From Kiritimatiellales bacterium (GTDB taxonomy: Bacteria > Verrucomicrobiota > Kiritimatiellia > Kiritimatiellales > Pontiellaceae), in assembly GCA_003246265.1 (NCBI GenBank), contig QKAU01000045.1, positions 1-64,000 of the forward strand: a stretch of DNA of 64,000 nt. Direction: 5' to 3'. A program made the translations under genes and the position numbers. Below, in pieces: positions 10,929-30,225 of the stretch (within the stretch, counting starts at the first letter, position 1; each line of letters begins with the position of its first letter). The notes under the pieces are model-generated. The model was not told where the DNA came from and searched no databases. It worked only from the letters and a program-made list of their open reading frames with translations.

Positions 10929-11873
10929 ATGACGATAGAGAATGGGAATAGTGCGGCGGGACGTGGGGCCGTGCTTGTTGGGGCTGCCCTGCACGGAGGC
11001 GCAATCCTGCTGGCCATGCTGTTGACTTCCTGCCAGTCCATGGGCTGGCGGCCTGCTGCAGGGGATCCGACGTTTGCGGAGGGGGAGGATCCATGCCCGG
11101 CAGGAAAGAAATGGGTGCCGGTTGAAGGGATGTCGGATGAGTTCAACGGCAGGTCGGTCGACCTGGGGAAATGGCAGGTGGAACCGAATGCCAACAGCTT
11201 TACCTGGATCGGCCGGCCGCCGGGGCTCTTCCGGGCTGAAAACATATCGGTCAAGGATGGCAACCTCTGCGTGCAGGTGGGTGTCCTCGATGAACCGTAT
11301 GTGGGGGATGAGGGAACCTACACCTACTCGGGGGGCATCGTCCGCTCCCTGATGCCCGGACAGCCCGGCTGGTACTACGAGTGCCGCATGAAGGCCAACG
11401 CGACCGAAATGTCGTCCACCTTCTGGATGCTGACCATCGGGGGCGCGGCCGAGGCGCTGGAGCTCGATATCCAGGAGTGCGTAGGCCGGGTTACCGACAA
11501 AACCGAGAAGTGGGGCAGGAGCTGGGACCGGATCTTCCATTCCAACTGCGTCCACTGGCGCTACGACGTCGAACCGCGCGAAAAGAAGCAGCAGGGCATG
11601 CTGGCCCTGGAAGAACCGAACTGCAGCCGCTATTTCGTGTATGGGGCGTGGTGGAAGTCGGCGGACGAGATCCGGTTCTATCTGGACGGGAAATACGCCT
11701 ATTCGATGAGGCCGGAGTCGAAATGGGACCTTCCGGCCTATCTGCACATGGCGATCGAGACGTATGACTGGAACCCGGTTCCGGAGGACGGCGGCCTCGT
11801 GGCCTCCGGCACGCTGGATCAACGCACGACGAGGTACGACTGGATCCGGACCTGGAAGCTGGTGGAAGAATAG
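10929..11873 (+). CDS. GH16 family endo-galactanase-like lipoprotein
   Basis: The protein has 314 residues when started at ATG 10929, six bases after GGGAGG. ATG 10923 touches that element and is less likely. Residues up to about 35 form a lipoprotein signal ending in the lipobox 'LLTSC', so the enzyme is probably anchored in a membrane. The rest is a single GH16 jelly roll: 'MSDEFNGRSVDLGKW' opens the fold, 'YYECRMKANATEMSSTFWML' lines the cleft, and the catalytic motif is E178-L-D180-I-Q-E183. The extra residue in E-x-D-x-x-E is the beta-bulge form found in agarases, porphyranases, kappa-carrageenases and laminarinases. With five sulfatases around it, an endo-acting enzyme on a red-algal galactan is the most likely role. 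The exact specificity is not proven. Confidence 0.86.
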   Translation: MTIENGNSAAGRGAVLVGAALHGGAILLAMLLTSCQSMGWRPAAGDPTFAEGEDPCPAGKKWVPVEGMSDEFNGRSVDLGKWQVEPNANSFTWIGRPPGLFRAENISVKDGNLCVQVGVLDEPYVGDEGTYTYSGGIVRSLMPGQPGWYYECRMKANATEMSSTFWMLTIGGAAEALELDIQECVGRVTDKTEKWGRSWDRIFHSNCVHWRYDVEPREKKQQGMLALEEPNCSRYFVYGAWWKSADEIRFYLDGKYAYSMRPESKWDLPAYLHMAIETYDWNPVPEDGGLVASGTLDQRTTRYDWIRTWKLVEE

Positions 11874-20703: not shown

Positions 20704-20959
20704 TCCGGTCGGCGTCGGCCTAGGAATCGGATCATCGCAAGTGGCGGATGGCGGTGCGCCGCCCGATCCTGCGCCTGCGTGCCGACGGCGAATTGCCCGG
20801 GAAGACTCCCTGCGAGCACCGCGGTGGCCCCATTCGGGACCTGCCGCGCGGTCCGGCTTGTTAGCGTTAACTTTTTTTTCGTATTTCCCTGCCCAATTTC
20901 CGGGCCGGGCGCGAGTATAGGGTAGAAAGCCGGTTGTTGCGCCGCTTTCCGGGGAATCG
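20704..20959. other. intergenic region between the degradation operon and the sigma/FecR operon
   Basis: The gap carries no convincing gene. It has a small 5-bp stem at 20837-20841/20850-20854 and, 17 bases later, a run of eight T (20872-20879) preceded by GTTAAC. The AT-rich patch stands out against its GC-rich surroundings and is the likely promoter area for the sigma-factor gene. TATAGG at 20916-20921 could be a -10 element, but no matching -35 was recognised. An ECF-dependent autoregulatory promoter is possible but cannot be read from one copy. Confidence 0.4.
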
Positions 20960-21490
20960 ATGGCCGAAACTCTTCAAATCGAAATGGTGCTCCGCACCTT
21001 CTACGCCAACCAGGGCGCCTTGCGCGGCTATGTCTTTTCGGCGACCCGCGACTACCATGCCACCGAGGACATCCTGCAGGAAACCGCCATTGTCGTCGCG
21101 AAGAAGGCCTCCGAAATCGATGCCGGGCGCCCCCTGCTTCCGTGGTTCCTCGGCATCGCGCGCTACCAGGTGCTGCGCTGGAACCGGGCCCGGGGGCGGG
21201 AAGGCGGCCATGTGAGTTTCGAGCTGCTGGAGGAATTCATCCCCTTTTACGTCGAGTTCGAAAACGAGCAGGCGGCACAGCGCAGGTCGGCCCTCAAGGA
21301 TTGCGTGGAAAAACTCCCCCCGAACCAGCGCCGGGTCGTGCGGCTGCGCTATGAGGAGCACATGGACTGCCCGGGGATCGCCGAATCGATCGGCCACTCC
21401 ATCCAGGCCATCTATTCGCTGCTCAAGCGCATGAAGCAGGACTTGCGCAAATGCGTGGAACTCAAGCTTGCGCACCAGGAGGTGCAGTGA
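20960..21490 (+). CDS. ECF-type RNA polymerase sigma factor
   Basis: This 176-residue sigma-70 family protein of ECF size starts at ATG 20960 after GGGGAA. Region 2 is visible at about residues 10-55 ('YVFSATRDYHATEDILQET', the helix that contacts core polymerase and the -10). Region 4 is at about residues 115-165 ('LPPNQRRVVRLRYEEHMDC' then 'GIAESIGHSIQAIYSLLKR', a helix-turn-helix for the -35). The length and 'AVYSLLSR'-like end match the ECF group widespread in Planctomycetes and Verrucomicrobia. Its TGA stop shares one base with the ATG of the FecR-like gene, so sigma and anti-sigma are translationally coupled. It probably drives transcription of this operon and perhaps the sulfatase cluster (inference). 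Confidence 0.9.
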   Translation: MAETLQIEMVLRTFYANQGALRGYVFSATRDYHATEDILQETAIVVAKKASEIDAGRPLLPWFLGIARYQVLRWNRARGREGGHVSFELLEEFIPFYVEFENEQAAQRRSALKDCVEKLPPNQRRVVRLRYEEHMDCPGIAESIGHSIQAIYSLLKRMKQDLRKCVELKLAHQEVQ

Positions 21491-22767
21491 TGCTCTTCAG
21501 GGAACAGGACGGAACCGGGCCGGATCTGGTGGCCGACTACTTCCTGCGCGATCTGTCGGCGGAGGAGCTGGAACAACTCCAGGACCAACTGCGCAACTGC
21601 CCCGACGCGCGAAAACGCTTTGCCGAAGCGGGTAGCCAGGAATGGCTCCTTTCGGACCTGCACCATGCGGACGAGGTGCGCATGGTCCATTTCACTCCGC
21701 GGCGGGCGCGTTCGCGCAGGATCCGCGCCATCGCCGCAGGCGTGGCGCTGCTGCTTACCATCGGCACCCTCTACACGGCCCGCCATACCCAGTTGGCGAA
21801 GCGCGTGGCCGCCGACCGGGATGCAGTCGTGGTTGCGCGGGTGGCCGATTGCTATGTGCTGGATGGCACGGCCATCTCGGTCGTGAACGATGGGCGGGTC
21901 GGGAAACTCGGGCCGCGCTCCACGATCCATAGCGGAGACCACATCCACGTTCCCGAAGGATGCCGCCTCTCCTTCACCTATCTCAATGAATCGACCCGGA
22001 TCGAGGCCAGCGGCGGCACGATGGTCGCCGTGGCGGACGATGGGGGCGCCAAGCGGCTCTTCCTGCGCAAGGGGGGGCTGGCGGCCGACGTCGCGAAGCA
22101 GCAACCGGGGAAGCCCATGCGACTGGCAACGCCCGATGCCGAGGCCGAAGTGCTCGGCACATCCTTCGAGCTGCTCGTATCCGGGAGCACCCGCCTCTAT
22201 GTCTCTTCGGGGTGCGTACGGTTCCTGGCCAAGGAGAAGGGTTCATGGGTGGATGTCGCCGCCGGATTCACGGCGGATACGGCGTCGGGGGCGCGGGAAA
22301 CGGGATCCTACCAATCCAGGCGTTTCCACCCTGTCGTCGACGGCACGCCCGAAGGCGACGTCGACCCGCGATTCATCGCCGTCGACCCGGAGCGGAACTA
22401 CACCGGCATGCTGAGGTTCGAGCTTGGCGAGCTCGGCGGACGGATCATCGAGGCCAGGCTGAGGCTGCGGGTCATGCGGATGCAGTTGGATTACGGCGGT
22501 AGCGGGGATGTCCGGCTCTTCATCCGGAACCTGCGGGCGGGAATGGGGGGGGGGCTCCGGCAGGTTGCGCACTATTGCGGCAACGTGGGCGGGGACATGG
22601 ATTTGGAGTTCGAGATCGATCCGGATGCCCTGGGCGACGGAGCCTGCGAATTCCAGATCCGGCTGGACACGGGCGGCAACGATTTCTGGTTCAGCTCGAG
22701 CCGGGGAAGCGTTCCGCCGGAACTGTTGCTGAAGATCGAAACAAAGGAAACGGGGGAAGGGAAATGA
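21490..22767 (+). CDS. FecR-type anti-sigma/sensor protein with a C-terminal DNRLRE-like module
   Basis: The protein has 425 residues. Residues 1-70 form the cytoplasmic anti-sigma part ('YFLRDLSAEELEQLQDQL'). Residues about 79-97 are one transmembrane helix (IRAIAAGVALLLTIGTLYT). Residues about 115-262 are the periplasmic FecR domain ('GDHIHVPEGCRLSFTYLNES', 'ATPDAEAEVLGTSFEL'). Residues about 275-418 form an extra module with 'YTGMLRFELGELGG', 'ARLRLRVMR', 'GSGDVRLFIRN' and 'GGNDFWFSSSRG'. This resembles DNRLRE/CBM96-like modules and closely parallels a module in the next gene ('GGNDAWFSSSEG'). FecR proteins usually receive a signal from a TonB receptor; none is present here. It overlaps the sigma gene by one base and the giant gene by four. 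Confidence 0.85.
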   Translation: MLFREQDGTGPDLVADYFLRDLSAEELEQLQDQLRNCPDARKRFAEAGSQEWLLSDLHHADEVRMVHFTPRRARSRRIRAIAAGVALLLTIGTLYTARHTQLAKRVAADRDAVVVARVADCYVLDGTAISVVNDGRVGKLGPRSTIHSGDHIHVPEGCRLSFTYLNESTRIEASGGTMVAVADDGGAKRLFLRKGGLAADVAKQQPGKPMRLATPDAEAEVLGTSFELLVSGSTRLYVSSGCVRFLAKEKGSWVDVAAGFTADTASGARETGSYQSRRFHPVVDGTPEGDVDPRFIAVDPERNYTGMLRFELGELGGRIIEARLRLRVMRMQLDYGGSGDVRLFIRNLRAGMGGGLRQVAHYCGNVGGDMDLEFEIDPDALGDGACEFQIRLDTGGNDFWFSSSRGSVPPELLLKIETKETGEGK

Positions 22768-25700
22768 GAAGGATATGGGTTGCCTTGGCGGTAGTGGTTG
22801 CGGCGGCGGCATGGAGCAGTGCGCAGCAATCGGTGACCAGCTTCACGCTGATGAACGCGGATACGGATCTGCCGATCGCAGGGCATGATCCGTTTGTGAG
22901 CGGGGCGAGCATCGACCTGGCCACGCTGCCGACGCGCAACCTGAACATCCGCGCCAACACGTCGCCATATCCGGTGGGCAGCCTGCGCTTCGACTACGAT
23001 GGGGCCATCGGCTACCAGTTGGAAAATGGCGCGCCCTACGCCTTGGCAAAGGATACCTCCGGCGACTTCTGGCCATGGACGCCCTCGGTCGGCAGCCACA
23101 CCTTGACGGGCACACCCTTTACGGAAGCCGGCGCAGCCGGAACGGCCGGCACGTCGTTGACCATCAACTTTACCGTTGCCGACTCCGGCGGAGGCGGCGG
23201 GGGCGGGGGGGGCGGTGGCACCGGCGCGTGGATCGAGAGCGGCGGCATGCTGGTCATGGAGGCGGAAAACGCGGAATTTCCGGCCGGATGGAAAACCACC
23301 ACCGTCACGCCGCCGGCCGATGCCACGATGGGCGGCTTCCTCGGCGGCGGCTATGTGGAGTGGACCGGTGCGCAGTATTCCGGCCTGACCATCGCCGACT
23401 CGGCGGCCAACGCCGTGGTGACCTACACCTTCGTCATTGCGACCGAAGGCGACTACACCTTCCGCTGGCGCTCCAAGCAGTATTCCAGCGTATCGGCGGG
23501 CGATGCCGGCAACGATACCTTCTTCCGGTTTGCCGACGGAACGGTTCCCGCCGGGGCGTACGACTTCAGCCAGTTCGTCAAGGTATGGGTGCAAAGCAAG
23601 ACGGCATGGTCGTGGCAGACTACCGGCGAACCCGCCGCGGCCGTGTTCTATGCGAACAACATGAAACGCCACTACCCCCCCGGCGTCCACAGCATCCAGC
23701 TGGCCGCCCGGTCGCCCGGACACGCCATCGACCGCATCGTGCTGCACCACTCCAGCGTGCCGTTCAACGAAACCACCTTCAACAACGCCTCCGAATCCGA
23801 TCGCCAGGGGGCGCCGGAGACGATGGTGTACGCTGCCACGACCGACTTCCCGATCATCAATTCGGGAGAGGTCCCCTACTACAAGGACACCGCCCGCAAC
23901 GCCCTGGCCATCGATGCTGCGAACACCGCCTACCGCGGAAAGTTTGCCCGTGCGCAGACGCCGTTCGCCGGGGTCGGTTCAACCTACGACGTCACTATTA
24001 CCTCGTTGCGGGAATTGGACGGTGAATGTACCTACCGCTTTCTGGTCAACGGCGCCGTCAAGGGCTCGGCGCAGAACAGTTCCACCACCACCGACTATGC
24101 GCCGCAGAGCCATACGTTTGCCGGCATCACGATTGCTTCGAACGACACGATCGCGGTGGAATCGAACACCGATTCCAACGGGCTGGTGCCCGAAGGCGCC
24201 GGATTTGCCTGGGCCCGCGGCCGCTGGACCACGCTTACCCTGGTACCTTCATCGGGCGGCGGGGGGGGCGGCGGTTCCGATCCGGTGGCCGATGCCGGCG
24301 TCGACAAGGCCGTCGTGCTGCCGAGCACCTCGGTGGTGCTGAATGGATCGGGTACCGACGACGGCTCCATTGCCGCCTACGGATGGAGCCAGGTTTCCGG
24401 GCCGAACACGGCCACGCTCAGCGACACGAACACGGCTTCGCTGACGGCCTCCGGACTGATTGAAGGCAGCTATGTCTTCCGCCTGACCGTCACCGACGAC
24501 GAGGGCAACACCGGCAGCGACGATGTCATCGTTACCGTCACCACGGCCAGCAGCGCGGGCGTGGTTTTCACCGGCGAACTGCGCCAGTGGCACAAGGTGA
24601 CGCTGACGCTGGATGGCCCCAGCACGTCGGAAGGCGCGACGCCGAACCCCTTCACGGACTACCGCATGAACGTCACCTTCACGCATCCGTCCTCCGGCCT
24701 GAGCTACGTGGTGCCCGGCTATTTCGCGGCCGACGGCAATGCCGCCAACACGGGGGCGACGGCCGGCAACCAGTGGCGCGCGCACCTTTCGCCCGACCAC
24801 ACCGGACTGTGGAACTATTCCATCTCGTTCCGCTCCGGCGCGAACGTGGCGGTCGGCGATGCCGCCGCCGGGGCGGCGCTTGCGCCGCACGACGGCAAGA
24901 GCGGGAGCTTCACCGTGGCCGAAAGCGACAAGCCGGCCGAAGACTTCCGCACCAAGGGCCGCCTGACCTACGCCGGGAGCCGCTACCTGAAGCATGCGGG
25001 CGACGGTACCGCGTTCATCAAGACCGGGGCCGATGCGCCGGAAAACTTCCTTTCGTACAACGAATTCGACAACACCTACAACCGCGGCGGCACCAGCTAC
25101 CTCAAGTCCTGGAGTCCGCACGTCGGCGACTGGGAGTCGGGCGATCCCACCTGGAACGGCGGCAAGGGGAAGGGCATCATCGGGGCCATCAACTATCTCG
25201 CCTCCGAGGGGCAGAACGTCTTTTCCTTCCTGACCTACAATGCGGGCGGCGACAGCGACGATGTCTGGCCGTTCACCGCGCCCGACAACCCGCTGCGCTA
25301 CGACTGCTCCAGGCTCGACCAGTGGGAGATCGTTTTCGAGCACGGGCAGAACAAGGGGATGTACCTGCACGTCAAGACGCAGGAGACCGAAAACGACAAT
25401 GGCAACCAGTGGGCGCTCGACAACGGCGATGTGGGGACCGAGCGCAAGCTCTACTACCGCGAACTGGTCGCACGCTTCGGCCACCATCTGGCGCTCAACT
25501 GGAACCTCGGCGAGGAAAACAGCCAGACCGAGGCGCAGGAGAAGGCCATGGCGCAGTATTTCCACGACACCGATCCCTATCATCACAACATCGTGCTGCA
25601 CACCTTCCCCGGCGAACACTACCGCTACGACTGGCATCTGGGAACCCAGTCCAAGCTGACGGGATGCTCGATCCAGACGGCCTATGGCAGCGTCCACGCC

Positions 25701-28700
25701 GATACGCTGACCCAGATCAACAATTCGACCGGTGCGGGCAGGCCGTGGGTGGTCGCCAACGACGAGCAGGGTCCAGCCAACTATGCCAATCCGCCGGACA
25801 ATGGCTGGCCGGGTTATTCCGGAGGAACGACGCCCTCCCAAGCGCAGATGCGGCAGAACGTAGTGTGGGGCAACCTGATGGCCGGCGGCGCGGGCATCGA
25901 ACTCTATGCCGGCTACCAGAATCCGGAGAGCGATCTCACCCTGCAGAATTTCCGCAGCCGCGACCGCATGTGGGACTATTGCCGGTTTGCCAAGCATTTC
26001 TTCAACAACCACCTGCCGTTCAGCCAGATGGTGAACGCCAACGGGCTCATCGGCAACAGCGCCAACAACAATTCCAAGTACTGCTTCGCCAAGGCCGATT
26101 CGGTCTACGCCATCTATCTGCCCAGCGGCGGCACGACGACGCTCAACCTTTCGGCCGCAACGGGGCAGTTCGTGGTGAAATGGTTCGATCCGCGCAACGG
26201 CGGCGACCTGCTTGACGGCAGCGTGGCCACCGTTAACGGTGGCGGAACGGTCTCCGTCGGCAATCCGCCCAACAACAGCTCCCAGGACTGGGCGGTGCTG
26301 GTCTGCCGCGCGGGCGAGGAATACAACGGCGAAAACCGCCGTACCACGCCGATCGTGAACGCCGGGGCCGACCAGACGATCGTGCTCCCCGCCAACTCGG
26401 CCGTGCTCAACGGCTCGGCTTCGGACAACGGAACCATCGTATCGTATGCGTGGGCCCAGGTCTCCGGACCCGGTGCCGCGACGCTGGGGGCGACCAACGC
26501 GGCGACCTTGGCCGTTTCGAACCTCGTGGCCGGCACCTATGTCTTCCGCCTCACGGCCACCGACGACGAGGGCCATGCGGAAAGCGATACCGCAAGCGTC
26601 ATCGTCAAGGTCAATACGGTTCCTGCCATCACGACCACCATCTTGCCCAGCGGCAAGGTCACGGTTCCCTACAGCGAACAGATCGCAAGGACTTCGGGCG
26701 ATGCGCCCTTTACCTGGTCGATCGCAGCCGGCGGGCTGCCGGACGGCCTTTCGCTGGGGAACGACGGCATGGTTTCCGGAACGCCGACCACCATCGGCAC
26801 GAACACCTTCACGGTGCGGGTCGCGGACCAGCAGGGCGACAGCGACGAACAGGCCCTGACCATCGCCATCGAACCCGAACCGAATACGGAAACCTTCGTG
26901 TTCAACCCGATCGATGACGCCTATCTGGAAAGTGGCGTCCTCAACAACAACACGCTGCTCAAGATCGAAAACGGGCGTCGGATTGCCTATCTCAAGTTCA
27001 ACGTAAGCGGCCTTTCGGGCGATCTGGTCAGCGCCACGCTCTCCATGAAATGCGACACCGACGGGGGCAACGGCACGATCAACCTGTACAAGGGGTCGCA
27101 CAACAGCTGGACGGAAGCGGACCTGTCGACGGCCAACGCGCCGGCCGCGGGCGCCAAGGTGGGGGAATATGCCGGAACCTATGCCGTCGGCACGATCTAC
27201 ACGGCGGATGTTGCCCCGCTGCTGGACGGCCTGGGTGATGCAACCTACAGCATCGTGGCCGAGATGGCGTCGGGCGGCAACGATGCATGGTTCAGCTCTT
27301 CCGAGGGTGCCTACGAGCCGGTGCTGGAGATCGTGGTCGACCACGGTACCATCATCGGGCACCGCCCTGTCGTCGACGCGGGACAGGACATCACGGTCTC
27401 GCTGCCCGACAACCAGGCCACCCTGGGGGGCAGCGCCTCCGACCATGAAGGCGCGGTCTCCATACAATGGACCCAGCTGTCCGGTCCCAACAGCGCCGTG
27501 CTCGTCGGAGCCACCAACGCAACCCTGACGGCAGCGGGGCTGATTGCGGGGGAATATGTCTTCGAAATCATGGCCACCGATTCCGACGGCAACACGGCGA
27601 AGGATTCCGCCAAGGTGACCGTCACCGATCCCGGTTCGGGCGGCGGGGAGACGGGCGCGTGGATCGAAAGCGGCGGCCTGGTGGTGATGGAGGCCGAGCA
27701 TGCCGAGCTGGTTTCCAGCTGGGTGGCGCGGCCCACAACCTACGGCGCGGCCAACGCCATGGCGGGAAGCCTGGGCGACGGCTGGCTGGAGTGGACCGGC
27801 GCGCAGTATTCCGGACTCTCCCTGCCGGAGTCGCAGGTCAATGCCATCCTGACCTTCACCTTCGAGATCCAGACCGCGGGCGACTACTATTTCCGCTGGC
27901 GCTCCAAGCAGTACAACAACGTGTCGGCCGGCGACGCAGGGAACGACACCTTCGTTTCGCTCACCTCGGGCACGCCGGTCAGCGGGTTCCAGGATTTCAG
28001 CAACTTCACCAAGGTCTGGGTGCAGAGCCAGACGGCCTGGTCGTGGCAAACCACCTTCGAGCCGGTATCCGCCACGTTCTACGCCAACGCCAACGTGCGC
28101 CGCCACTACGAAGCCGGCAGGCATACGATCCGGCTGGCGGCGCGTTCGCCGGGCCATGCGATAGACCGCATCGTGCTGCACCACTCCAGTGTTCCATTCA
28201 ACGAAGCGAACTTCGAAAACGCCCCGGAATCGGCCCGCGTCGGCGACAGCGGCGATCCGGTGGCCGTGGCCGGTTCCGACCAGGTTGTCAGCCTGCCGAA
28301 CAACCACATCACCCTGCATGGTTCGGCGACGGATTTTGACGGCACGATCTCCGCCTATGCATGGACGCAGCTTTCCGGCCCGAATGCCGCATTGCTGAGC
28401 GGTGGCACCACCGCGACGCTGACGGCTTCCAATCTGGTATTGGGCACCTATGTGTTTGAATTGACCGTGACCGACAACGAGGGCAACACCGGCAGCGATT
28501 CCGTGGCCGTGGTGGTGCAGAACCCTGCGCCTCCGCTGGTCAGGACCGTGCTGTGGGAAGAGGATTTCGACAGCGCGTCACCCGGAACATCCTCCGGGGT
28601 CAATCAAACGTTGGCGGGAGCCGATTTTTTCACGGCCAACGGCATCCTGTCGGAGGTGGTTGCCGCCCCGGCTGCATTCACGACGGCCTCCGGAAATGCG

Positions 28701-29468
28701 GCGCTGCTGAGCACGCTGAACAACGTCTGGGGCGGCGTGGAGAAGGCAAACAGCGCAATCGACCTGTCCGGTTACAACATCCAGCCGGGAGCCGAATACA
28801 AACTCTCGTTCGACATTTACATACCGGTCGGCTTGGCGGCTCCCGTGGGTGGCATCTTCCTGCGCTGGGCCGACGACACGTCCGGCAACGGACCGTTTGA
28901 TTATTCGCAGGAAGCATCGGCAAGCGGCGTACATCATTTCGAGTATGCCGGCACGTTCCCGATGAACTATGGGAGCTCGGATTTCATTCCGACGCGGGTG
29001 TGGCCGATCATCTACTTCCATCAGGATGGTGCGGTAGCCGATGACCATGTCTACATCGACAACATCCTTTTCGAGATCGGCCCCACGCCGGCCAGTACGC
29101 TGCCCAGCTACCAGGAGTGGGCCGCAATCGTCGGGCTTTCCGGGGCCGATGCCGATCCTTCGCTGGACCTGGACCAGGACGGGTTGACCAATATGGAGGA
29201 ATACCTGTCGGGCTTCGATCCCATGAACGCTTCGTCGGTGTTCGCCGTTGAATCCGTGCAGATGCCGGGGGCCGATGGCCTCGTGGTACAGTGGGAGTCC
29301 ATGGAACATCGCATCTATACCATCCTCATGGCGACGAACCTGGTATCGGTCGGCTACCAGGTCGTGGCAGACAACATCGCGTATCCGCGGAACAGCTACA
29401 CGGTCGATGTCGGGCAGGCTACAGGATACGTGCAGGTCGGGGTTCGCCTGTCGGAAGGGGGGGAATAG
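22764..29468 (+). CDS. giant secreted modular glycoside-hydrolase-like protein (CBM-like, PKD, DUF5060, TIM barrel, DNRLRE, TSP3)
   Basis: The protein has 2234 residues with a signal peptide (MRRIWVALAVVVAAAAWSSAQ). Modules, approximate residues: a sandwich 25-145, a Gly-rich linker near 141-152, CBM-like module A 153-349, a second sandwich 359-496, PKD 506-594, DUF5060-like 600-722, a TIM-barrel catalytic-type domain 726-1096, a collagen-binding-2-like sandwich 1100-1189, PKD 1195-1282, putative-Ig (He_PIG) 1286-1372, DNRLRE-like 1376-1529, PKD 1533-1625, CBM-like module B 1630-1827, PKD 1831-1922, a sandwich 1928-2107, a TSP3/EF-hand-like 'DADPSLDLDQDGLTNMEEY' 2113-2157 and a C-terminal sandwich. 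In the barrel, 'NLGEENS' (Glu917/918) and 'ANDEQGP' (Glu1001) are candidate acid/base and nucleophile. It probably binds and cuts a polysaccharide outside the cell; the substrate is unknown. Confidence 0.82.
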   Translation: MRRIWVALAVVVAAAAWSSAQQSVTSFTLMNADTDLPIAGHDPFVSGASIDLATLPTRNLNIRANTSPYPVGSLRFDYDGAIGYQLENGAPYALAKDTSGDFWPWTPSVGSHTLTGTPFTEAGAAGTAGTSLTINFTVADSGGGGGGGGGGGTGAWIESGGMLVMEAENAEFPAGWKTTTVTPPADATMGGFLGGGYVEWTGAQYSGLTIADSAANAVVTYTFVIATEGDYTFRWRSKQYSSVSAGDAGNDTFFRFADGTVPAGAYDFSQFVKVWVQSKTAWSWQTTGEPAAAVFYANNMKRHYPPGVHSIQLAARSPGHAIDRIVLHHSSVPFNETTFNNASESDRQGAPETMVYAATTDFPIINSGEVPYYKDTARNALAIDAANTAYRGKFARAQTPFAGVGSTYDVTITSLRELDGECTYRFLVNGAVKGSAQNSSTTTDYAPQSHTFAGITIASNDTIAVESNTDSNGLVPEGAGFAWARGRWTTLTLVPSSGGGGGGGSDPVADAGVDKAVVLPSTSVVLNGSGTDDGSIAAYGWSQVSGPNTATLSDTNTASLTASGLIEGSYVFRLTVTDDEGNTGSDDVIVTVTTASSAGVVFTGELRQWHKVTLTLDGPSTSEGATPNPFTDYRMNVTFTHPSSGLSYVVPGYFAADGNAANTGATAGNQWRAHLSPDHTGLWNYSISFRSGANVAVGDAAAGAALAPHDGKSGSFTVAESDKPAEDFRTKGRLTYAGSRYLKHAGDGTAFIKTGADAPENFLSYNEFDNTYNRGGTSYLKSWSPHVGDWESGDPTWNGGKGKGIIGAINYLASEGQNVFSFLTYNAGGDSDDVWPFTAPDNPLRYDCSRLDQWEIVFEHGQNKGMYLHVKTQETENDNGNQWALDNGDVGTERKLYYRELVARFGHHLALNWNLGEENSQTEAQEKAMAQYFHDTDPYHHNIVLHTFPGEHYRYDWHLGTQSKLTGCSIQTAYGSVHADTLTQINNSTGAGRPWVVANDEQGPANYANPPDNGWPGYSGGTTPSQAQMRQNVVWGNLMAGGAGIELYAGYQNPESDLTLQNFRSRDRMWDYCRFAKHFFNNHLPFSQMVNANGLIGNSANNNSKYCFAKADSVYAIYLPSGGTTTLNLSAATGQFVVKWFDPRNGGDLLDGSVATVNGGGTVSVGNPPNNSSQDWAVLVCRAGEEYNGENRRTTPIVNAGADQTIVLPANSAVLNGSASDNGTIVSYAWAQVSGPGAATLGATNAATLAVSNLVAGTYVFRLTATDDEGHAESDTASVIVKVNTVPAITTTILPSGKVTVPYSEQIARTSGDAPFTWSIAAGGLPDGLSLGNDGMVSGTPTTIGTNTFTVRVADQQGDSDEQALTIAIEPEPNTETFVFNPIDDAYLESGVLNNNTLLKIENGRRIAYLKFNVSGLSGDLVSATLSMKCDTDGGNGTINLYKGSHNSWTEADLSTANAPAAGAKVGEYAGTYAVGTIYTADVAPLLDGLGDATYSIVAEMASGGNDAWFSSSEGAYEPVLEIVVDHGTIIGHRPVVDAGQDITVSLPDNQATLGGSASDHEGAVSIQWTQLSGPNSAVLVGATNATLTAAGLIAGEYVFEIMATDSDGNTAKDSAKVTVTDPGSGGGETGAWIESGGLVVMEAEHAELVSSWVARPTTYGAANAMAGSLGDGWLEWTGAQYSGLSLPESQVNAILTFTFEIQTAGDYYFRWRSKQYNNVSAGDAGNDTFVSLTSGTPVSGFQDFSNFTKVWVQSQTAWSWQTTFEPVSATFYANANVRRHYEAGRHTIRLAARSPGHAIDRIVLHHSSVPFNEANFENAPESARVGDSGDPVAVAGSDQVVSLPNNHITLHGSATDFDGTISAYAWTQLSGPNAALLSGGTTATLTASNLVLGTYVFELTVTDNEGNTGSDSVAVVVQNPAPPLVRTVLWEEDFDSASPGTSSGVNQTLAGADFFTANGILSEVVAAPAAFTTASGNAALLSTLNNVWGGVEKANSAIDLSGYNIQPGAEYKLSFDIYIPVGLAAPVGGIFLRWADDTSGNGPFDYSQEASASGVHHFEYAGTFPMNYGSSDFIPTRVWPIIYFHQDGAVADDHVYIDNILFEIGPTPASTLPSYQEWAAIVGLSGADADPSLDLDQDGLTNMEEYLSGFDPMNASSVFAVESVQMPGADGLVVQWESMEHRIYTILMATNLVSVGYQVVADNIAYPRNSYTVDVGQATGYVQVGVRLSEGGE
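23220..23808 (+). repeat. intragenic duplicated CBM-like module, copy A
   Basis: This segment of the giant gene encodes a module beginning 'GAWIESGGMLVMEAENAEF' and ending with 'AIDRIVLHHSSVPFNE'. The same module recurs at 27651-28245 with long identical stretches such as 'FRWRSKQY', 'VSAGDAGNDTF', 'KVWVQS', 'TAWSWQTT' and 'RSPGHAIDRIVLHHSSVPFN'. The nucleotide sequence is also very similar over these parts, indicating duplication inside the gene or maintained gene conversion. Confidence 0.85.
27651..28245 (+). repeat. intragenic duplicated CBM-like module, copy B
   Basis: This is the second copy of the module at 23220-23808, separated from it by the catalytic-type barrel, two PKD domains, the He_PIG domain, the DNRLRE-like module and another PKD domain. 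It opens 'GAWIESGGLVVMEAEHAEL' and keeps 'WLEWTGAQYSGL'. Conserved Trp, Tyr and Asp residues in both copies suggest a carbohydrate-binding surface related to CBM6/35 or GH115 C-terminal modules. The family assignment is tentative. Confidence 0.85.
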
Positions 29469-29469
29469 C

Positions 29470-30225
29470 ATGAAGAAGATTCGATGCATGGCCGCACTCA
29501 TGGTTTGCGGAGGGGTGCTTGCTGCCCGGGCCGCGCTGCTGGCCGGCACCCCGGAGGGCGCGCCCTATGCCGGACGCGTGGCCATCGGCGACTACGGGTT
29601 CGGGGCCGGTTATCCCATCCTCCAGGCCCGGCCCTTCGGTACCGGCTCCCAGGACTGCCAGCTGGTTTCCGTGTGGTTCGGGAGCCAGCTCTATTGGGAA
29701 GGGGGGGCGGGGGCGCTCTCCTTGTCGATCTATGCCGACAGCGGCGGCGTGCCTGGTTCTCCCGTGGCGGGAGGGCTTGCCCTGTTCTCGGCCAGTGCCG
29801 CAACCGTCGACCAGATGCTGTATCCGTCGTCGTCGCTGCTCCTGATGGCGAACACCACCTACTGGCTGGTGGCTTCCGCGGACCAGTCGCAGGGCGCAAC
29901 GCGATACTGGTGGAACCTGACGGACAGCGCGCTCTTCGAATCCGCGCTGCCGGGCGCGGGCCTGCCGTTGGCCAGGGCCAACGATGCCGGCGGATGGGCA
30001 GCCTATTCCGGCGCCTCCATGCAGGTGGCAATCCAGGGAACGGCCGTGCCGGAACCGGCGACCCTCTCCTTCTTCGGTCTTGGGGGCATCGGGACCTTCC
30101 TGTTGCGCGGCAAACGCCGCCGCCGGTCGTGCTCCGGTGCTGTCCGGTCGTACGAAACGCTGGTCTACCGGACCTCCTTCTTGGAGGAGGAGCGCGCCGC
30201 CCCGGCGCTGGCGGAGTGCCACTAG
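29470..30225 (+). CDS. PEP-CTERM sorting-domain protein with an unusual C-terminal tail
   Basis: The protein has 251 residues; its ATG is one base after the stop of the giant gene. It has a signal peptide (CMAALMVCGGVLAARAAL). A beta-rich domain follows with 'YPILQARPFGTGSQDCQLVSVW', then 'MANTTYWLVASAD', resembling the choice-of-anchor domains of PEP-CTERM proteins. At about residues 193-220 is the sorting signal: 'VPEPATLSFFGLGGIG', a hydrophobic stretch and the basic cluster GKRRRR. PEP-CTERM proteins are processed by exosortase; no exosortase is in the window. Usually the protein ends at the Arg cluster, but here about 30 further residues follow ('SCSGAVRSYETL...'). The coupling suggests co-expression with the giant protein as a surface partner. 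Confidence 0.82.
   Translation: MKKIRCMAALMVCGGVLAARAALLAGTPEGAPYAGRVAIGDYGFGAGYPILQARPFGTGSQDCQLVSVWFGSQLYWEGGAGALSLSIYADSGGVPGSPVAGGLALFSASAATVDQMLYPSSSLLLMANTTYWLVASADQSQGATRYWWNLTDSALFESALPGAGLPLARANDAGGWAAYSGASMQVAIQGTAVPEPATLSFFGLGGIGTFLLRGKRRRRSCSGAVRSYETLVYRTSFLEEERAAPALAECH

Follow-up and report, generated by a model that had tools for sequence, protein, structure and literature searches.

We describe an operon from a marine member of the Pontiella group (Kiritimatiellales, Pontiellaceae), in which a FecR-type membrane anti-sigma factor carries a C-terminal tail homologous to a module of the giant secreted protein encoded next to it. The operon lies in a 64,000 nucleotide stretch of DNA (contig QKAU01000045.1, positions 1 to 64,000, assembly GCA_003246265.1), here called the window; the draft genome has about 3.0 Mb and is 96% complete. 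According to the predicted structures, tail and module have a common beta-sandwich fold, that of carbohydrate-binding modules (CBMs). The best reading of these data, which we hold with modest confidence, is that the FecR protein is a receptor-less periplasmic glycan sensor and that the genes for the sigma factor, FecR, the giant protein and a PEP-CTERM protein form an autoregulated glycan-response operon. The operon contains the following features.

20882..20927, + strand: two-box promoter TTTCCCTGCCCAAT-N18-TATAGGGTA upstream of the operon, kept before 12 of 12 sigma genes
20960..21490, + strand: gene for an extracytoplasmic function (ECF) sigma factor; TIGR02989 (Rhodopirellula/Verrucomicrobium family), 138.7 bits with a cut-off of 124.55; Pfam sigma70 r2 and r4_2
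21490..22767, + strand: FecR-type membrane anti-sigma factor, 425 amino acids; Pfam FecR at residues 165-243, above threshold (35.1 bits, cut-off 24)
21727..21780, + strand: predicted single transmembrane segment of FecR, approximately residues 80-97; hydrophobic stretch AIAAGVALLLTIGTLYTA, assigned from the sequence by eye
22300..22746, + strand: CBM96-like C-terminal tail of FecR, residues 271-419
22764..29468, + strand: giant secreted protein, 2234 amino acids; domains from a Pfam scan, signal peptide assigned from the sequence by eye
26898..27332, + strand: CBM96 module of the giant protein, residues 1379-1523, GGND subtype
29470..30225, + strand: PEP-CTERM protein (Pfam), the fourth gene of the cassette

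The genes for the sigma factor, FecR and the giant protein are coupled by overlaps of one and four bases, with coordinates and starts as claimed from the sequence: the ATG at 21490 lies in TGATG and the ATG at 22764 in ATGA. Besides the CBM96 module, Pfam assigned to the giant protein the domains DUF5060 (606-690) and Collagen_bind_2 (1092-1179), PKD domains and a GH115_C-like region (1633-1809). A sequence comparison of region 606-1183 with the PDB found no match.

The FecR tail and the module of the giant protein

The sequence-only reading had aligned the FecR tail with the module of the giant protein, and this alignment is borne out. BLASTP of FecR residues 279-417 with giant residues 1380-1526 yielded 41.6 bits (E 2e-7, 26% identity, 154 columns), and the profile of 12 tails compared by hhalign with the profile of seven modules gave a probability of 99.4% and an E value of 3e-21. 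When the FecR protein was compared with the whole genome of the bacterium, it matched itself, one paralogous FecR (43%) and the module of the giant protein (E 8e-5), and nothing else. By these sequence comparisons the similarity between tail and module is well beyond chance. In Pfam, the module is above the threshold for CBM96 (53.6 bits, cut-off 26, E 3.1e-14). The window tail alone gave no match to CBM96, and no confident Pfam domain was found in the last 180 residues of the window FecR; 11 of the 12 members of the tail alignment score weakly for CBM96 (best E 2.6e-4).

The folds were predicted separately with AlphaFold2, the tail from the alignment of the 12 tails only and the module from the alignment of the seven modules only, with pLDDT values of 91.8 and 84.8, respectively. 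Foldseek searches of the solved structures returned 8wab (a chondroitin-sulfate CBM) and 7vbo (an alginate CBM96) among the top matches of both queries; the top matches of the tail also include BMP/activin prodomains. In the VIA-align ranking 8wab was first and 7vbo second for both, with Z 14.8 and Z 13.1 (rmsd 3.1 A over 134) for the tail and Z 19.6 and Z 16.1 (rmsd 2.5 A over 145) for the module. The fold comparison that had been proposed for tail and module thus came out in favour of a common fold, and by sequence and predicted structure the two are homologous.

The sequence-only reading had called the two modules the same. At about 26% identity the tail is a homolog and no recent copy: in the tree, all tails fall into a single clade (100/99) that excludes every module, which rules out a recent copy of the adjoining module. 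Certain D, R, W and G residues are invariant in all 12 tails.

Promoter and predicted regulon

The promoter consensus consists of TTT-N3-TGMCYAAT with variation at one or two positions, a spacer of 18 bases and a TNNNGG-like box, and is located 37-71 nucleotides before 12 of 12 sigma gene starts. A leave-one-out position weight matrix (PWM) gave p values of at most 9e-4 at each of the 12 sites (approximately 9e-4 for the copy in the window), and the copy at 20882-20927 is the only PWM match above 10 bits in the window. A GGAAC -35 element, proposed from three sigma promoters, was dropped because its spacing is inconsistent; the constant feature is TGMCYAAT-N18-TNNNGG.

A pattern search of the bacterium's own 3.0-Mb genome allowing one mismatch found two matches, both exact and both located before sigma-FecR-giant operons, and none with the reversed control. 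Since the pattern was built on the sites of sigma genes, its presence there is no test, while its absence elsewhere in this genome is one. Other genomes contain more one-mismatch matches, about as many as the reversed controls. Because the promoter is found at only two places, both before such operons, and sigma factor and giant protein are encoded in one operon, cis control of the giant protein is well supported, as had been proposed. The predicted regulon in this genome, as judged from the promoter sequence, consists of the two operons.

Control of the upstream sulfatase cluster had also been suggested, and this part finds no support: neither the pattern search of the genome nor the PWM scan of the window revealed a promoter copy in front of it, and the cluster was not retained in the predicted regulon. 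The cluster (window 199-20703) codes for three sulfatases, an alpha-L-fucosidase, a GH16-like protein, a LamG/F5-F8 FAD oxidoreductase, a GH2 protein and a tagaturonate epimerase and looks like a locus for sulfated fucan or a similar glycan.

A secreted protein of about 524 amino acids with a C-terminal CHB_HEX_C/Fn3 region (L026:2600-4171, minus strand; L075:2177-3433) served as a partial promoter test: it was first picked out by its promoter copy in genome G017, and then the four other orthologs were scored. In G017 it is located after the giant operon and has its own promoter copy. Within the genus it occurs only in five genomes with tailed FecRs, with strong promoter copies in G017 and G014 and weak ones in the three others (p 0.006 to 0.018). 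Giants that are unlinked to a tailed FecR, in G024 and G027, are preceded by weak sites only (p 0.013 and 0.036). Further matches of the promoter pattern were a copy with one mismatch directly behind the DUF5060 gene (776 amino acids) downstream of a tailed FecR (G024:C1:1346169-1346206) and three near-identical 38-base repeats (TTTCTGTCCCCAATTTTTTGTCAGATCTACACTG...; G017:C137:315, 1422 and 1777).

Recurrence of the cassette

Altogether, 12 tailed FecRs were found in seven of the 28 genomes of the genus, and each is directly preceded by a sigma gene (12 of 12). Downstream DNA is visible for ten of them: the next gene encodes a DUF5060 protein in six cases and another PKD protein in one, and three have nothing on the same strand. 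Four adjoining giants contain a CBM96 module, namely those of the window, of G017 and G005 and of a paralogous operon on contig C72 of the bacterium's own genome; one adjoining giant is cut off by a contig end. In G017 and G005 the giant gene is followed directly by a PEP-CTERM gene 50% identical to that of the window, which results in a four-gene cassette. No relative was found on any plasmid in the plasmid search.

The paralogous sigma-FecR-giant operon (G000:C72, locus L004, minus strand, approximately L004:5645-13092) has a giant with a canonical CBM96 module. Its giant gene is split between two reading frames around reverse-strand position 11081, which is due to a frameshift or an assembly error.

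GGND-type modules (>240 bits) are present in six of the 28 genomes, all of them among the seven with a tailed FecR (hypergeometric p 1.9e-5, uncorrected for kinship). In G024 and G027 the GGND module is part of a giant encoded elsewhere in the genome, away from the tailed FecR.

Similar arrangements are found in the wider phylum. On one contig of the distant G296, which belongs to another family, a sigma gene is followed by a FecR with a CBM96 tail above the Pfam cut-off and, directly after it, by a homolog of the 524 amino acid secreted protein that lies behind the giant operon in G017. The G296 tail is located in the tree outside the Pontiellaceae tail clade and groups with modules from secreted proteins (branch 100/99). 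This suggests a separate origin of the G296 sigma-FecR-CBM96 cassette, with deep divergence as the alternative. Other contigs of G296 encode a sigma-FecR-DUF5060-CBM96 operon whose FecR tail is of another kind, a FecR ending in an NPCBM domain, and one that ends in LamG and adjoins another DUF5060-CBM96 giant. FecRs with an NPCBM tail are also present in G175 and G027. The FecRs of this kind are located as follows.

L167:1699-3000 and L168:6187-7551 (G296), L193 (G027), L190 (G175): FecRs with NPCBM or LamG C-terminal domains

Tentatively, these proteins might represent a Verrucomicrobiota class of receptor-less FecRs with exchangeable periplasmic glycan-binding domains (CBM96, NPCBM, LamG), which would have been gained repeatedly from secreted enzymes and would each control enzymes with matching modules, in an independently evolved Gram-negative parallel to the clostridial RsgI proteins.

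Proposed mechanism and comparison with known systems

The FecR protein would span the inner membrane with one helix and hold the sigma factor in the cytoplasm through its N-terminal anti-sigma region; in the periplasm, the FecR domain would be followed by the CBM-fold tail, which takes the place of the receptor-dependent part. The tail's most likely role is to bind an oligosaccharide that is probably anionic or sulfated, and binding would release the sigma factor without an outer-membrane receptor of the FecA type. The freed sigma factor would then read the TGMCYAAT-N18-TNNNGG promoter of its own operon, and more of the giant DUF5060/CBM96 protein would be made; this protein, with its related module, presumably targets a glycan of the same kind.

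Equivalent surface residues in tail and module, as expected by the sequence-only reading, were found in part. In 7vbo, the alginate-binding domain of Dp0100, the mutation R36E abolishes alginate binding, K10, K25 and K27 contribute together with other residues, and Y159 matters (PMC9971899). We mapped these residues by sequence alignment only. The GGND(F/A)WFSS motif is common to tail and module and covers the loop that holds N157 and Y159 of 7vbo. The equivalent of Arg36 (R34, which aligns with the DDRIGYLKF Arg of 7vbo) is invariant in seven of seven giant-type modules, and that of Lys25 likewise, while in the Pontiellaceae tails both are out of register. The 12 Pontiellaceae tails have an invariant Arg, residue 302 in the window FecR, two residues before the Arg36 position, and in the G296 tail the Arg36 equivalent is in register. 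The binding groove appears to be partly common to tail and module and partly different.

The shifted register in the Pontiellaceae tails weighs against the proposed sensor, and so do the following points. Tails lacking a matching partner, which had been named as the case that would speak against the proposal, do occur in part: three of the 12 tailed FecRs have no adjoining giant, and one such genome (G001) has a tailed FecR with a degraded tail motif (GRNDFWICSAKG) and no GGND module at all. In some adjoining giants (L033, L035) no CBM96 was seen. The 12 tails form a clade separate from the modules, and the ligands of the two may differ. Finally, the tail of a Gram-negative protein of this type lies in the periplasm, where only imported fragments would reach it.

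It is also conceivable, if unlikely, that the tail responds to sulfated exopolymer made by the cell itself, or to the giant protein in periplasmic transit, and that the system monitors the state of the matrix or of export. The best solved fold for the tail is a chondroitin-sulfate CBM, the giant protein, which has a related module, crosses the periplasm, and cultured Pontiella did not grow on alginate, all of which would agree with such a function. The giant protein holds DUF5060 and Collagen_bind_2, though, which are frequent alongside glycan-active enzymes, and the LamG or NPCBM tails of FecRs elsewhere fit a diversity of ligands better than export sensing.

Similarly improbable is a structural or vestigial tail, with FecR controlled by some other input, for example a protease, a protein partner or an unlinked receptor, and a common domain pool as the sole source of the similarity. 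CBM96-like modules are indeed plentiful in some members of the genus (12 matches in G005, 18 in G021), the ligand-binding Arg and Lys are not in register, and G001 has retained a tailed FecR without any GGND module. However, apart from the FecRs, CBM96 occurs at only about five places in the genome of the bacterium itself, two of which are giants directly behind tailed FecRs, the D, R, W and G positions are invariant over 12 tails, and a second, apparently separate FecR-CBM96 fusion is present in another family.

A conventional FecA/FecR relay, with an STN-bearing TonB receptor of the outer membrane as the source of the signal to FecR, would be compatible with the FecR domain and with the two TonB receptors (Plug domain) of the draft genome, but is very improbable, because both receptors are unlinked to the operon and have no STN signalling domain in Pfam at E 0.01, and because the C-terminal part of the window FecR has a CBM fold and not the FecR_C domain that Pfam found in other FecRs of the phylum. 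In a genome that is 96% complete, these observations are in line with the receptor-free sensing that had been suggested.

If the tail is indeed a glycan sensor, it would report its own ligand and thereby a candidate glycan for each orphan giant or enzyme locus, which could be tested with one purified domain. The promoter would offer a direct route to listing such regulons. Cultured Pontiella encode approximately 500 sulfatases (PMC7356697), and the literature searched contained nothing on how bacteria of this type choose which sulfatases to make.

The system resembles the ferric citrate signalling of E. coli (FecI/FecR/FecA) in having an ECF sigma factor and a membrane protein with a FecR domain. 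It differs in that no TonB receptor is linked and no STN domain was seen, a CBM fold is present instead of FecR_C, and a multi-domain secreted protein is encoded alongside. With 7vbo and 8wab, tail and module have the fold in common (Z 13-20), and the giant module is above the Pfam cut-off; here, the tail forms part of an anti-sigma factor and has no in-register equivalent of Arg36. The Verrucomicrobiota FecRs with LamG or NPCBM tails (G296, G175, G027) likewise have a lectin-like C-terminal domain, which is unrelated to the tail described here; no published work on them was found in the literature searched. A FecR of the present design was not described there either, in agreement with the novelty that had been claimed for it.

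The closest precedent, which the sequence-only reading had not mentioned, is SigI/RsgI of Clostridium (Acetivibrio) thermocellum. Of that reading's overall interpretation, the fold and the operon control of the giant protein are supported, and the link to the sulfatase cluster is not. Clostridial RsgI anti-sigma factors sense polysaccharides via C-terminal CBMs (PMC4711584), which shows that an anti-sigma factor with a CBM sensor is a workable design. RsgI6 and Xyn10D have GH10 modules with 57% identity, and SigI6 activates the promoter of Xyn10D (PMC4711584). As in SigI/RsgI, sigma and anti-sigma factor are co-encoded, the putative extracytoplasmic sensor is CBM- or enzyme-like and related to modules of the enzymes that would be regulated, and the promoter is probably autoregulated (PMC4711584, PMC6056542); the relation between the sensor module and a module of the operon-coupled secreted protein is given here by homology and gene coupling. 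The two systems belong to different sigma/anti-sigma families: no RsgI domain was found among the Pfam or NCBIfam matches, and the partner is an ECF sigma factor of TIGR02989. RsgI is Gram-positive with its sensor outside the cell, whereas here a FecR-type protein has a periplasmic CBM96-type tail. CBM-bearing anti-sigma sensing would then have arisen separately in Gram-negative bacteria. It is plausible that the operon represents a variant of the known anti-sigma factor with a polysaccharide-binding sensor, now in the FecR/ECF family and in a recurring cassette, and hence a Gram-negative counterpart of RsgI.
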